Of a stretch of DNA of 55,143 bases, positions 2,856 to 55,143 are shown piece after piece. Origin of the DNA: a virus. Both the position numbers and the translations under genes were made by a program. The stretch covers positions 1 through 55,143 of IMG/VR virus record IMGVR_UViG_3300033153_005039; one strand, given 5' to 3'. Each line of letters starts with the position of its first letter. Position 1 is the stretch's first letter. Under the pieces are notes generated by a model. That model had not been told where the DNA came from, searched no databases, and worked only from the letters and a program-made list of their open reading frames with translations.

Positions 2856-2979
2856 GGGGGGCGGTCCTCTCACAACTACCTCCAACCGAAAGCACTGCAC
2901 TGTTCACCCTCGCAATATACCGTCCCCCTTATTTCGTCCTCCTCTCTTTACGCCCCCGGTGACCCGAGCCGGGGGTTTT
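2856..2979 (+). ncRNA. Candidate small RNA, ~124 nt, with anti-SD-like loops
   Basis: The intergenic stretch has its own extended -10 upstream and an intrinsic terminator at its end. Bases 2856-2864 (GGGGGGCGG) pair with 2920-2928 (CCGTCCCCC) through nine base pairs including one G-U. The 55-nt loop contains ACCTCC at 2878-2883, and a linker before the terminator contains TCCTCCTCTC at 2937-2946. Both match the anti-Shine-Dalgarno sequence and could pair with GGAGG ribosome sites. No coding potential is visible. The transcript and its role are inferred. Confidence 0.5.
2953..2979 (+). terminator. Intrinsic terminator
   Basis: Perfect 7-bp stem CCCCCGG/CCGGGGG around a nine-base loop, followed by TTTT. 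It ends the candidate small RNA and insulates the ParB-methyltransferase gene. Confidence 0.75.
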
Positions 2980-2980
2980 A

Positions 2981-4756: not shown

Positions 4757-4789
4757 ACCATCTACCCATTTCGGGATTGTTTTAGAATG

Positions 4790-4819
4790 CCTGGTCACGG
4801 AGGACCGGGTGTTTTTTTT
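4790..4819 (+). terminator. Intrinsic terminator
   Basis: CCTGGTC/GACCGGG stem (7 bp, one G-U), six-base loop, then TG and eight Ts. It ends the small terminase transcript just before a consensus promoter. Confidence 0.85.
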
Positions 4820-4840
4820 GTCGATAGCATATAAAACCGC

Positions 4841-4869
4841 TTGACAGTAAGTACAAAGGGGTTTATACT
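4841..4869 (+). promoter_or_regulatory. Consensus sigma70 promoter
   Basis: TTGACA and TATACT separated by exactly 17 bases, 39 bases upstream of the next start codon. The spacer shares much of its sequence with the leftward promoter at 35986-36014, ending in GGTTTATACT in both, so a common regulator may bind there. Confidence 0.85.
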
Positions 4870-19833: not shown

Positions 19834-21079
19834 TACGAAACAATACACGAACCGACAAAGGCAGATGACAGGTCCGGCGGTCCTTAGTGCCTATGATGAT
19901 GTCAACGATTACTATTACCGCCTCGGTTATATCGATGGGATTAGGGTCAGACGTGAATCGGACAACGTTTACCAGTCTGAGATTCATGTCAGCCGTTCGG
20001 TCGCCATTGATGGTCTTACCGTCGGTGAGAGATGGTTCTGTAACTGCTCCGTTATGGAACGGCTCAACCCGGATTGGCAGCGGTTGATTTTCAAGGACTG
20101 CGGTACGCCGTCGATCTTTGGATCATGCAGCTTGCAAACAATCACTGAGGAATTGAGAATGTTCCGTAATCATGCCCAGGTCCTTGCGTTCAAGAATGGA
20201 TTCTGGGGTGACGGTATATTACCCGCGCCGACCGGAGCTGCAAGTGCGGCGGCAGGTGCCGGGGCGACTATCCCGACCGGGACCTATGTAATTGTTGTCG
20301 AGGCCGTTTATACCGATGCACAGGGCTTGAATCCTATCAGGTCAGCGGAAAACGAAGCTGCCGGAACAGGTGTTGTACTTGGACAGGAATTAACTGTGAC
20401 ATGGAATGCACCTGTCGGCGGATACACACCGTCCTATTATAATATCTACGAGTATGATACAGCCCTTGCCGAAACACGAGCAGATGCCGATCTTATAGCC
20501 ATTGTACTGGGCACATCACCGACAGCCGTTATATTCGATTCTTTCACCGATCTTGGCGACTGGCCCGGTGACACACTGGGCGCGGCCTTCACCGTCACGG
20601 ATAATACGGGTCTGATCGATTTCACTGCCGGTGATGACTACACTATCGATGCTACATGCGCCAGGTTCGCATTGCTGGACGACGGCGACATTGACGATGG
20701 GGAGCTGTTACTCGTGACATACACTTACGTCGCGAATCCCTATTACACGCAGACAATTGGACCCGGTGATCGCAATCCGAAGATAATGCATCTTGTTATT
20801 CAGTGGTTCAAGGACGATGAACGTATCACGCCTTCCGGTCGCGGTTGCGAGGTTCATCTATACCATGTCCACACTGAATCCGGTTTTGAATGGCTCTTTG
20901 ACCAGATGGACTTCGAGAGCGGCTTCGATCAGGAATGGCGCGTTCTCCTGGACAGTGCTACCGGAAAGTACGGCGATATTTATACGTATCATAAAGACAT
21001 GGAAACATGGGAGCTATTCGAGCTTTCCAACATCAGTAATTACACAACTGACGACGAATGCAGCCTCGTTAGTTCGTAA
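19826..21079 (+). CDS. Major tail tube-like protein with inserted Ig/FN3-type domain, 417 aa
   Basis: Position before the tail chaperone and tape measure marks it as the tail tube candidate. A central insert of about 100 residues (GTYVIVVEAVYTD, then LTVTWNAPVGGY, then YYNIYEYD) has an FN3-like look, as surface Ig domains do on tail tubes. The flanks have YYRLGY and DFESGFDQEWRVLLDS. A full-length paralogue lies at 30408, sharing N- and C-terminal parts closely. Confidence 0.75.
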   Translation: MTDTKQYTNRQRQMTGPAVLSAYDDVNDYYYRLGYIDGIRVRRESDNVYQSEIHVSRSVAIDGLTVGERWFCNCSVMERLNPDWQRLIFKDCGTPSIFGSCSLQTITEELRMFRNHAQVLAFKNGFWGDGILPAPTGAASAAAGAGATIPTGTYVIVVEAVYTDAQGLNPIRSAENEAAGTGVVLGQELTVTWNAPVGGYTPSYYNIYEYDTALAETRADADLIAIVLGTSPTAVIFDSFTDLGDWPGDTLGAAFTVTDNTGLIDFTAGDDYTIDATCARFALLDDGDIDDGELLLVTYTYVANPYYTQTIGPGDRNPKIMHLVIQWFKDDERITPSGRGCEVHLYHVHTESGFEWLFDQMDFESGFDQEWRVLLDSATGKYGDIYTYHKDMETWELFELSNISNYTTDDECSLVSS

Positions 21080-21097
21080 TAAATAAAGGAGCGTATG

Positions 21098-21652
21098 ATG
21101 ACAGAATCAACTCCCCGCGAGAGGTTGGAATTTAGTATATCCAACAAACCGCCGATGGTGGGCGTGTTCAATGGGAAACCTATATCCATTGAGCGCATCA
21201 AGCTTTCCGAAATAAAAGAAACATGGTCGGAAGTAGTCAAGATCATGCGTACCGCGCAGAATCATGCTATGTTCGCACGCTCCAAAGGTGGCGGCGATCC
21301 AGAGTCAGACGATTCGGTCGCCGCCGCCGATGGACTTTTCGACACGCTGGAAGAACTCGGACCCGGAGCGATTAATATCATCCACACATTCATCAAGGCA
21401 TCGACTGATAGCACCGATGAGATGCTGGACGATGCCGATTTCTGGTCACTGGCAGAACTGGTCGTTTTAATCCTTGAGCATAACGTGGGTCCTGATCTTA
21501 TGGATTTTTTCGGGCGCGGGGCAAGCGTTCTAAGAACACTGAACTTATTGCCCGAATCACCCGATACCAAGGGGAACAATACCTCATCGAGCGAGGATGG
21601 AGCCCCGGAGACATCGACAACTTCTACCCCGGTGAACTCGAATGCAGATTAG
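21098..21652 (+). CDS. Tail assembly chaperone, gpG-like
   Basis: Acidic helical protein between the tail tube and tape measure genes, matching lambda G in position and type. ATG chosen with AAGGAG six bases away; an overlapping in-frame ATG lies one codon earlier. A slippery T TTT TTC sequence at 21505-21511 near codon 137 allows a -1 shift into an overlapping frame, giving a longer GT form. The unshifted product ends in a Ser/Thr-rich tail. Confidence 0.85.
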   Translation: MTESTPRERLEFSISNKPPMVGVFNGKPISIERIKLSEIKETWSEVVKIMRTAQNHAMFARSKGGGDPESDDSVAAADGLFDTLEELGPGAINIIHTFIKASTDSTDEMLDDADFWSLAELVVLILEHNVGPDLMDFFGRGASVLRTLNLLPESPDTKGNNTSSSEDGAPETSTTSTPVNSNAD

Positions 21653-49656: not shown

Positions 49657-49676
49657 TTGACATCCTTAAATTTTTC
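49639..49676. promoter_or_regulatory. Direct repeat, probable operator sites in the divergent promoters
   Basis: CTTAAATGTTTT (49639-49650) and CTTAAATTTTTC (49665-49676) lie in the spacers of the leftward and rightward promoters, 26 bases apart, on the same strand. They are the obvious binding sites for the HTH regulator, but no footprint is available. Confidence 0.5.
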
Positions 49677-49685
49677 GTTTATAAT
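49657..49685 (+). promoter_or_regulatory. Rightward early promoter
   Basis: TTGACA, a 17-base spacer and TATAAT, both boxes perfect. It drives the structured leader and the replication operon from 50024 on. Confidence 0.88.
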
Positions 49686-49751
49686 CCAAGCGTACACTCA
49701 AGTCCTCCCCCACGGAATGGGCTTTGAGGCCGGGGGTGACACGGAGGTTGC

Positions 49752-49770
49752 CCCCGGTGAACCTTGAAAA
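49752..49770 (+). repeat. 19-bp repeat in leader, copy 1
   Basis: CCCCGGTGAACCTTGAAAA, overlapping the 3' arm of the first hairpin. An exact second copy lies 96 bases downstream in the same position relative to another hairpin. Confidence 0.9.
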
Positions 49771-49847
49771 TAAAATAGAATCCTCATCAGAGGTTTCCTT
49801 GCCGACAGGGGCAAGCCACAATTAATGGGAGGTGGCCTGTCACATCT

Positions 49848-49866
49848 CCCCGGTGAACCTTGAAAA
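49848..49866 (+). repeat. 19-bp repeat in leader, copy 2
   Basis: Exact copy of 49752-49770. The hairpin arms upstream differ in sequence but both pair, so the structure appears to be conserved in the duplicate. Confidence 0.9.
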
Positions 49867-50023
49867 GTTATTGAAGTGGGCTGCCGGAAAGCTTAAACGT
49901 CACTGGCAATACTAGTCAGCCACACAAGCCTCTACCGACAGTCCTCTTGAATAACTGCGCTGTAAGGAATTCAGCCGGGGGACACCAGACGCGATTCTGA
50001 TCCCCCGGCACCTGGAGGACACG

Positions 50024-50323
50024 ATGGAAAAAATGACACTGGATGAATTACTACACCACATAAACTGCTTTGGCGAGGCGAACGAATCAAGCACGGCGAA
50101 CATTATCCACGCCTTCATTAAGAAAAACCGCGACGCCCTCACCGCTGGATTGCAGAAGCCTTTGAGGTTTAAAGAAAAAAACGGGACGTGGGCTGAGGTT
50201 TTTCCCGATGGCGAATATGTCTACGACGATGGAGACGGCAATTCGGCATTGAATTATTACGATAAGCAGGCAGTGATAAACGATTGTAAGCGTCGCGGCC
50301 TGCCCTGTGAATTCATCGAATAG
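50024..50323 (+). CDS. Hypothetical protein, 99 aa
   Basis: First gene of the rightward early operon; CTGGAGGACACG leader directly after the long hairpin. Helical beginning (LDELLHHINCFGE) and a C-terminal beta-containing part ending RRGLPCEFIE. A short leftward ORF at 36179 has a similar ending. Function unknown. Confidence 0.75.
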   Translation: MEKMTLDELLHHINCFGEANESSTANIIHAFIKKNRDALTAGLQKPLRFKEKNGTWAEVFPDGEYVYDDGDGNSALNYYDKQAVINDCKRRGLPCEFIE

Positions 50324-50610: not shown

Positions 50611-50852
50611 CCACTGAACAAATAACCCGCCCCGGTGTACGTTGCCGCTGCGGACGGCTCCATGCGTTCTCAGATGGACGCTACGGGCTGATGCAACCGT
50701 CGGTATGCTCTGTGGGTGCTTCGGGGGCATTTACCGCCCTGAGAGTGGCGGTCCCGTCCTGTACAGGAACTTACTGGGTGCCGTGCATGAGCTGGAGTCA
50801 GTGGAAATTTTGCACAAAGGGTATTGATTATGAGCGTACATTTTTCAAGTAA
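50607..50852 (+). CDS. Uncertain small ORF, 81 aa
   Basis: ATG overlaps the previous stop. The start (GVRCRCGRLHAF) looks like a real small zinc motif, but the second half is poor in protein-like patterning. In the +1-related frame, downstream, YRPESGGPVLYRNLLGAVHELESVE reads more like protein (shown here as two short stretches: GGIYRPESGG and LLGAVHELESVEIL). A frameshift in the gene or an assembly indel would explain this. Confidence 0.4.
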   Translation: MTTEQITRPGVRCRCGRLHAFSDGRYGLMQPSVCSVGASGAFTALRVAVPSCTGTYWVPCMSWSQWKFCTKGIDYERTFFK

Positions 50853-51252
50853 AACGCCTGAATGGTCAACACCGCAAGACTTGTTCGACGAGTTGGATCG
50901 TGAATTCGGCTTCAAGCTTGACCCTTGTGCAAATCTAGAGAATCATAAATGCGAGAATTTCTATACCGTCGATAATGATGGGTTGAGTCACGATTGGCAT
51001 TTATTCGGGCCGGTCTTTATGAATCCCCCATATGGTAGAGTTATCGGGAAGTGGGTAAAGAAAGCATACGAGTCAAGCTTGAATGGGGCAACAGTTGTGT
51101 GTCTGCTCCCGGCGCGAACAGATACCCGGTGGTTCCATGATTACATCTACGGGAAAGCCGAAATAAGATTCATTCGCGGTCGTTTAAAATTCGGCGGATC
51201 TAAAAACTCCGCGCCATTTCCCAGCATGATTGCCATTTTTAGGAAGCCTTAA
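50830..51252 (+). CDS. Phage DNA N6-adenine methyltransferase (Dam, PF05869-type), 140 aa
   Basis: EWSTPQDLFDELDREFGF near the start, DPCAN next, then NPPYG at 65-69 (catalytic motif) and a C-terminal GRLKFGG...APFPSM. This is the phage dam family that modifies adenine. Short form without a separate target-recognition domain. Starts at ATG in the region of AAGGG. Confidence 0.93.
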   Translation: MSVHFSSKTPEWSTPQDLFDELDREFGFKLDPCANLENHKCENFYTVDNDGLSHDWHLFGPVFMNPPYGRVIGKWVKKAYESSLNGATVVCLLPARTDTRWFHDYIYGKAEIRFIRGRLKFGGSKNSAPFPSMIAIFRKP

Positions 51253-53904: not shown

Positions 53905-55143
53905 ACGACACACAGCCAAAACCGCCACCGCATAACCTGGAAGCTGAACGAGCCATACTCGGATGCTGTCTGCTCGATCGTCGCGCCTTGATAACCGTGC
54001 TGTCGAACGTGAAGGCCGTGGACTTCTTCCATCCACCGCACCGGATCATATTCGAGGCGATACTGGCACTGTACGAGGCGAACGTGTCCCCGGACTACGT
54101 GTCGTTAACTCAACACTTACTTACTTTAAATAACCTTGAGGCTGCCGGTGGCGGGGAGTATATCGCTGGTTTAACTAACGTGGTCCCGAGTGTCCGGAAC
54201 GCGAATCACTACGCGGAGATAGTCCGGAACGCGCACGGTTATCGCAGATTGATCCGTTTGGGCAACGAACTGCAAAAACTGGCACTAGACCCGAAGCAAA
54301 TGAGCCTGACTGATATCCAGAACCACGCCCTCGATTCCCTGATGGACATAGGAGCAGCCCAGGCCAGCGACAAGGCGCATAGTATCTTCGAGACGTCCAA
54401 TGCATCAGCTCATCACGCGCAGCTCGTTAGGGAGGGCGTGAGGCGCAAGCCAATAAATCTTGGTTATCAGTGCCTTAACGAGCGTGTCGGACTTGAACCG
54501 GGTAATCTGGCATTCATCGGTGGCTATACGTCAACAGGCAAAACGACACTCGCAGTGAATATAGTCAAGAGGATGGTGCTTGCAGGGGAGTCAGTTCTAT
54601 TCCTGAGCATGGAAATGACAGAGCGGGAGATTGATCACAAGTTCGCATCCTGTATTACGGGACTGAGAGGCGGCGTTTTTAAATACGGTAATTTCTGGGA
54701 CCCAGGGACGTATCCTGAAGAATGGCGCGTATATACTGACGCGATAGTGCAGATGGATGAAAAGCTCTGGATTAAGCATGTTGATCGTAATCCAACAGAC
54801 AAGAATATCTCGCGAATCGTCAAGCAGGAAATGCTTGAACATCCACAAATCGGGCTTGTCGTGATCGATTATCTACAGCAAATCGAGTTGGATACAAATA
54901 GTTACGTGACTGAATATTTCAGAGTCAGTGAAGTTACGCGGGCAATGAAGCGGATGGTGAACGAGTGCAAGGTTGCCGGGTTGGTACTGTCGCAATTCAA
55001 TCGACCGGACAGGGGGGACCCGAATCGACCACCGCGATTAACCGACATGCGCGGGTCCGGTGTCATTGAGGAAGTGGGCGGGATGCTGTTTTTAATCAAC
55101 GTGATTGGAGGCAAGGGTGAGGATATTGACGGTAAGTTAGTGG
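53901..55143 (+). CDS. dnaB: Replicative DNA helicase DnaB (continues at left edge)
   Basis: DnaB helicase. N-terminal domain PHNLEAERAILGCCLLD; Walker A GGYTSTGKTT at 207-216; Walker B LVVIDYLQQ around 319-327; then SQFNRPDRGD and the DMRGSGVIE motif for the last RecA-type elements. Unwinds DNA at the phage fork and loads with the initiator upstream. Frame runs through the circular junction to give about 464 residues. Coupled by ATGA to the PP-loop enzyme gene. Confidence 0.95.
   Translation, partial: MNDTQPKPPPHNLEAERAILGCCLLDRRALITVLSNVKAVDFFHPPHRIIFEAILALYEANVSPDYVSLTQHLLTLNNLEAAGGGEYIAGLTNVVPSVRNANHYAEIVRNAHGYRRLIRLGNELQKLALDPKQMSLTDIQNHALDSLMDIGAAQASDKAHSIFETSNASAHHAQLVREGVRRKPINLGYQCLNERVGLEPGNLAFIGGYTSTGKTTLAVNIVKRMVLAGESVLFLSMEMTEREIDHKFASCITGLRGGVFKYGNFWDPGTYPEEWRVYTDAIVQMDEKLWIKHVDRNPTDKNISRIVKQEMLEHPQIGLVVIDYLQQIELDTNSYVTEYFRVSEVTRAMKRMVNECKVAGLVLSQFNRPDRGDPNRPPRLTDMRGSGVIEEVGGMLFLINVIGGKGEDIDGKLV
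55107..55143. repeat. 37-bp direct terminal repeat, right copy
   Basis: Exact copy of bases 1-37. Removing one copy gives a unit genome of 55,106 bp. Position 55107 is a codon boundary of the helicase gene, and position 1 continues the same frame. Confidence 0.95.

Follow-up and report, generated by a model that had tools for sequence, protein, structure and literature searches.

What is the role of a strong promoter that is followed by about 340 bases without a gene, at the head of the main rightward unit of an environmental phage? The window, i.e. the whole 55,143-nucleotide stretch of DNA that was analyzed (IMG/VR record IMGVR_UViG_3300033153_005039), carries a 37-bp direct terminal repeat (1-37 = 55107-55143), and a DnaB-like helicase gene spans the joint of the contig; it is probably the whole or nearly whole genome of a phage, circularly permuted and complete. 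Its genes encode terminase, portal, protease, capsid, tape measure, endolysin, methyltransferases, and a replication initiator. The sizeable plus-strand genes start at 50024 and continue over the joint as far as about 35.5 kb, forming a rightward unit of about 40 kb, and those of the minus strand extend leftward from 49639 to about 35.5 kb. The leader under study (49692-50023) heads the rightward unit, 3' of a sigma70-type promoter that is the strongest promoter-like site in the window.

Organization of the Leader

The main features of the locus are collected in Table 1. The promoter, described as perfect in a previous sequence-only reading of this DNA, indeed matches the consensus at every position, and the gene-free stretch reported behind it was confirmed, with no plus-strand ORF of at least 60 aa in the leader before the ATG at 50024. 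The interval contains only two short frames (33 and 27 aa) with no family evidence, and the Rfam search that was proposed in the same reading gave no family match (Rfam 15).

The predicted fold energy of the leader was -138.9 kcal/mol (z -5.1), a value that none of 100 shuffles reached, and in a survey of 184 windows covering both strands none had a lower absolute energy than the leader and only one a larger excess over shuffles. Within this fold, the previously noticed 19-mer CCCCGGTGAACCTTGAAAA is present in two exact copies (49752-49770 and 49848-49866), each directly 3' of a hairpin that is more stable than expected from shuffled sequences. Elsewhere in the window the 19-mer has no match within 3 mismatches, and window shuffles average 0.01 matches. 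The last 12 bases of each copy are GAACCTTGAAAA, and GAACCTTG is present in both of these elements, named boxA in Table 1 for the reasons given below. The modules show no residual similarity outside the 19-mer (P 0.79), and therefore the differing arms represent two different hairpins at the same place rather than compensatory changes of one ancestor; a large recent duplication of the modules was rejected on the same ground. Thus, of the initial proposal that a conserved structure with changed sequence points to an RNA function, an RNA-level function of the structured leader is supported, but compensatory change is not. Further downstream lie a long imperfect helix and, ending 4 nt before the GGAGG of the first gene, the perfect nine-pair stem that had been reported to abut the ribosome site; since no T-run follows it, this hairpin is not an intrinsic terminator.

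Table 1. Features of the leader and of the rightward unit (all on the plus strand)
Feature	Position	Details
Sigma70-type promoter	49657..49685	TTGACA-17-TATAAT; 12/12 consensus match
GUCCUCC near the 5' end	49702..49708	exact complement of GGAGGAC; pairing probability 0.84 in ensemble
boxB-like hairpin 1	49729..49758	12 bp, hexaloop ACGGAG; -23.0 kcal/mol in 36-nt window, P 0.004; tight window P 0.003
boxA 1	49759..49770	GAACCTTGAAAA; same sequence as boxA of cyanobacterial rRNA spacers; expected 0.0002 times per shuffled leader
boxB-like hairpin 2	49827..49850	8 bp, sequence unlike hairpin 1; -13.9 kcal/mol; 36-nt window P 0.044; tight window P 0.006
boxA 2	49855..49866	GAACCTTGAAAA; exact second copy
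Long imperfect helix	49866..49956	arms 49866-49887/49935-49956; 22-nt arms 82% complementary; in minimum-energy fold
Hairpin with perfect 9-bp base beside ribosome site	49974..50009	stem 49974-49982/50001-50009
Shine-Dalgarno region of first gene	50014..50020	GGAGGAC; predicted unpaired 0.008 versus mean 0.32 in shuffled leaders
First early gene	50024..50323	99 aa; no known family
Intrinsic-terminator-like site	2952..2980	9-bp stem then TTTT; candidate
Intrinsic-terminator-like site	4784..4820	13-pair stem and T-run; candidate

The Repeated Element Is Identical to a Ribosomal boxA

The element was recognized by way of a 16-mer scan of IMG/VR, which led to a virus contig (L036, also G011), and of the resemblance of its tail to rRNA boxA, which was followed by a literature search for GAACCTTGAAAA. 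In Thermoleptolyngbya this sequence is the listed boxA of the 16S-23S spacer, accompanied by a boxB helix (PMC8461337), and in an Arthrospira spacer it is found directly 3' of a hairpin, the printed sequence consisting of the hairpin and then GAACCTTGAAAACTGCATAG (PMC7699214). As judged from shuffled leaders, the chance of at least one exact boxA in the leader is about 2e-4. With its flank (TAAAATAG), boxA 1 matches the rrn pattern with one change, and the bases 3' of boxA 2 (GTTATTG) depart from that pattern. Hairpins located 5' of boxA, analyzed in ten elements from five sources, gave a combined P of 6e-6, and of 3e-4 without the window. The layout of the leader, initially taken to be of no known kind, is that of the boxB-boxA elements of bacterial rRNA operons.

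The sequence CCGGTGAACCTTGAAA was found in 16 contigs, 15 of which look like chance matches, nearly all lying inside long frames and lacking a second copy; one of these 15 (L034) shows a stable upstream fold, yet inside a 510-aa frame. The remaining contig, judged real, is the 43-kb G011 (IMGVR_UViG_3300008255_000207, also L054 and L056), which harbors five dispersed intergenic modules (at about 480, 1890, 2738, 3251, and 40879) made of a hairpin and GTGAAC[C/A]TTGA[A/C]AA, with an exact GAACCTTGAAAA in three of them. G011 and the window phage are unrelated except for a weak tape-measure match. The G011 modules are located between small genes that by eye encode an XRE-type regulator and DUF4145-like and PIN-like proteins. 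Behind three of the five lies the block AATGAATGGGGCATAGTAG, from which a second stem and a pseudoknot could form. A reading of these copies as attC-like cassettes was abandoned, as the core sites were not seen. A scan of IMG/VR for the two-copy pattern retrieved four contigs, all of them false matches to collagen-like repeat genes read backwards, and no exact boxA was present in twelve named cyanophages (about 1.03 Mb).

boxA and Hairpins in the rRNA Leaders of Synergistota

The association of the hairpin with boxA was checked in bacterial genomes. The boxA pattern was detected in 52 of 121 Synergistota genomes, with far fewer matches for the reversed control, and close variants of boxA are located 60-75 nt 5' of the 16S rRNA in this phylum; in one case (L076), a hairpin and GAACCTTGCCAACTGAATA lie about 60 nt before an Rfam-confirmed SSU (16S) rRNA. 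Of the 10 distinct copies before 16S rRNA, 9 had a hairpin of at most -10 kcal/mol on their 5' side, versus 1 of the 32 copies elsewhere (Fisher 2e-7); this cut-off was chosen after the values had been seen, and a rank test gave P 1e-4. Both window copies (-23.0 and -13.9 kcal/mol) pass this cut-off, and these values place them with the rrn type rather than with the bare boxA copies. Scans with a stricter or related pattern gave a match in only 1 of 299 Pseudomonadota genomes, and in none of 41 and none of 40 genomes from the phyla of G002 and G007, respectively; the Pseudomonadota match (L057, 2 mismatches) lies on a chromosome and seems fortuitous.

Bare boxA copies were observed before some protein genes and repeat arrays of Synergistota. 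The presence of boxA ahead of CRISPR arrays is known, and three boxA-like copies (L123, L128, and L080) stand directly 5' of apparent CRISPR arrays, visible as periodic translated repeats. Four others without strong hairpins (L120, L122, L115, and L077) precede ORFs that by eye correspond to RNase Y, SRP54, an IS200-type transposase, and another transposase.

A Proposed Role of the Leader in Antitermination

The leader thus combines a consensus promoter, two hairpins, a duplicated exact boxA, and a layout like that of rrn leaders. Taken together, these features make it probable that the leader constitutes two tandem rrn-type boxB-boxA antitermination modules that recruit host Nus factors for the rightward unit. 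According to this model, host RNA polymerase would transcribe the main rightward unit from the promoter in Table 1, and boxA in the nascent RNA would bind host NusB and ribosomal protein S10 (NusE), which together with NusA, NusG, and other partners would form a processive polymerase complex able to pass pauses and intrinsic terminators along the unit of about 40 kb. The two copies may raise the efficiency of loading and so exert a stronger effect. The rrn signals of E. coli are arranged as boxB, boxA, boxC, and for the recruitment of NusB-S10 and partners boxA is both necessary and sufficient, the role of boxB being called puzzling (PMC10250234); by analogy, the leader of the phage would be expected to load the host antitermination complex where the rightward unit starts.

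The two intrinsic-terminator-like sites of the rightward unit may be places where antitermination would matter, but they are no more than candidates, because in the rest of the unit scans for sigma70 promoters and terminators yielded about as many sites as in shuffles. A strong promoter-like site (4841-4869, 11 of 12) follows the second of them. Since Rho is absent from cyanobacteria (PMC13289151), antitermination in a cyanobacterial host would have to act on pausing or intrinsic termination. No boxA copy was found in the leftward operon.

A broader interpretation, which we regard as plausible but tentative, is that a complete host rrn signal has been taken over, duplicated, and used without a phage N protein for the early or the whole rightward genome, outside the Proteobacteria. 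As a part of it, and with the same reserve, the boxB hairpin might retain its shape while its sequence varies freely, as it does in rrn leaders. Most of what is known about processive antitermination in phages comes from lambda-like phages (nut and N, put) and from Nus-dependent relatives in E. coli, and the duplicated rrn-type modules heading an environmental phage operon suggest a direct hijack of the ribosomal antitermination complex with host factors alone. If this is true, phages would provide a natural test of the role of boxB, and two questions would become testable, namely the function of boxB in rrn operons and that of boxA complexes in Rho-less hosts such as cyanobacteria. The corresponding search rule is a host boxA located 3' of a hairpin in a phage leader. 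The literature searched, whose coverage was incomplete, yielded no report of a phage leader with rrn-type boxB-boxA modules.

Comparison with Known Systems and Alternative Explanations

In its proposed way of working the leader would resemble rrn antitermination, and in its purpose lambda nut. As in rrn operons, a hairpin lies immediately 5' of boxA, here in both modules, and a long unit starts behind a strong promoter; the boxA is that of cyanobacterial rRNA spacers and close to the Synergistota rrn boxA. Unlike rrn operons, the leader drives phage protein genes, with no rRNA detected by Rfam in the window, contains two complete modules but no recognized boxC, and continues downstream into further helices and a buried ribosome site. 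The nut sites of lambda and of the mEp021 group also combine boxA and a hairpin in a phage early leader, where host Nus factors are expected, and mEp021 has more than one nut site just as the leader has more than one module. The mEp021 group, i.e. Nus-dependent non-lambdoid coliphages, relies on the N-like Gp17, and the boxB loop of its nut sites is rich in adenine (PMC11893012). A lambda-type boxB loop that is bound by an N protein is adenine-rich or GNRA-like, with an N gene nearby. The loops of the leader (ACGGAG and GCCTGTCA) do not appear to be of the adenine-rich type, and its boxA differs from that of gamma-proteobacteria. In both modules boxA comes after the hairpin, the reverse of the lambda-type order, and in order and sequence the modules resemble rrn rather than lambda nut. 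An N-like arginine-rich protein was not identified, the first ORFs having no family and the first protein not being arginine-rich, but a distant N analogue may be encoded.

The predicted fold raises the question of translational control. The 7-mer GUCCUCC, complementary to the ribosome site, occurs in 3.6% of shuffled leaders, and an unpaired value of the ribosome site as low as that predicted occurs in 2.5% of them. These modeled values suggest that the leader fold buries the ribosome site against its own 5' end and that translational control of the 99-aa gene is possible, a weaker, second feature of the leader beside the boxB-boxA modules. The almost fully paired ribosome site could also mean that Nus factors on boxA, or the leader fold itself, block translation until a signal arrives, for which a boxA in the 5' UTR of E. 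coli suhB, a protein gene, provides a precedent (PMC5725501). Nevertheless, suhB has a single boxA close to the ribosome site that represses translation, whereas here two hairpin-boxA modules stand far upstream (150-250 nt from the ribosome site), and the pairing signal is modest; we consider such repression unlikely as the main role of the leader. Two boxA copies placed right after the strongest promoter-like site of the window might alternatively act as a decoy, an abundant leader RNA titrating NusB/S10 off the rRNA operons and helping to shut off host ribosome synthesis. This explanation shares the boxA evidence with antitermination, but the modules head the long operon of the phage itself, where antitermination is the simpler use, and no terminator after the modules supports a separate small RNA, which makes a decoy rather improbable.

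Two further explanations dispense with boxA, and both appear very improbable. A factor-free antiterminator RNA such as HK022 put, whose stem-loops bind RNA polymerase directly, would fit a structured RNA with stable paired stems 3' of an early promoter, and HK022 putR lies about 270 nt from the start site. However, put comprises a pair of neighboring stem-loops within about 70 nt, lacks boxA, and needs no dedicated protein factors. Among the features compared, the likeness is restricted to position, stable stems, and a likely role in antitermination, and the exact boxA carried twice by the leader would be left unexplained. The match to boxA might otherwise be coincidental, the leader being a riboswitch, a CsrA-type protein-binding leader, a leader-peptide attenuator, or another cis element. 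The CsrA/RsmE hairpin consensus is matched by CACGGAGG in hairpin 1 (at 49736-49750 this hairpin shows ACACGGAGGU, with the hexaloop closed by C-G), and both boxA copies open GTG AAC CTT GAA frames. Against such an element, Rfam 15 gave no match in the window (the best weak leader match, E 0.79, is on the opposite strand), no terminator for attenuation is present, and even one exact boxA is hardly expected by chance. The short peptides VNLE... from both copies belong to no family and are explained by boxA itself, and tRNA, Rfam, and CRISPR-repeat readings received no support.

Host and Relatives of the Phage

Searches with the terminase, DnaB, the first gene, the replication protein, and the tape measure revealed no close relatives of the phage or of the whole leader; they retrieved N-terminal replication-protein relatives and a tape-measure match only, none of which has the leader. 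The tape measure shows a 59% match to a Microcystis phage and the replication protein has distant matches to cyanophages, similarities that would point to a cyanobacterial host. Distant replication and reductase matches were also present in a Synergistales contig (L017), and cyanobacteria and Synergistota would both fit.

Two other loci of the window deserve mention. The Dam-type methyltransferase encoded at 50824-51249 is about 67% identical to Staphylococcus phage versions, far closer than other genes, and is likely a recent transfer. The plus-strand region 21001-21332, which lies both inside and 5' of the gene that precedes the tape measure gene, shows an excess of predicted RNA structure as strong as that of the leader.
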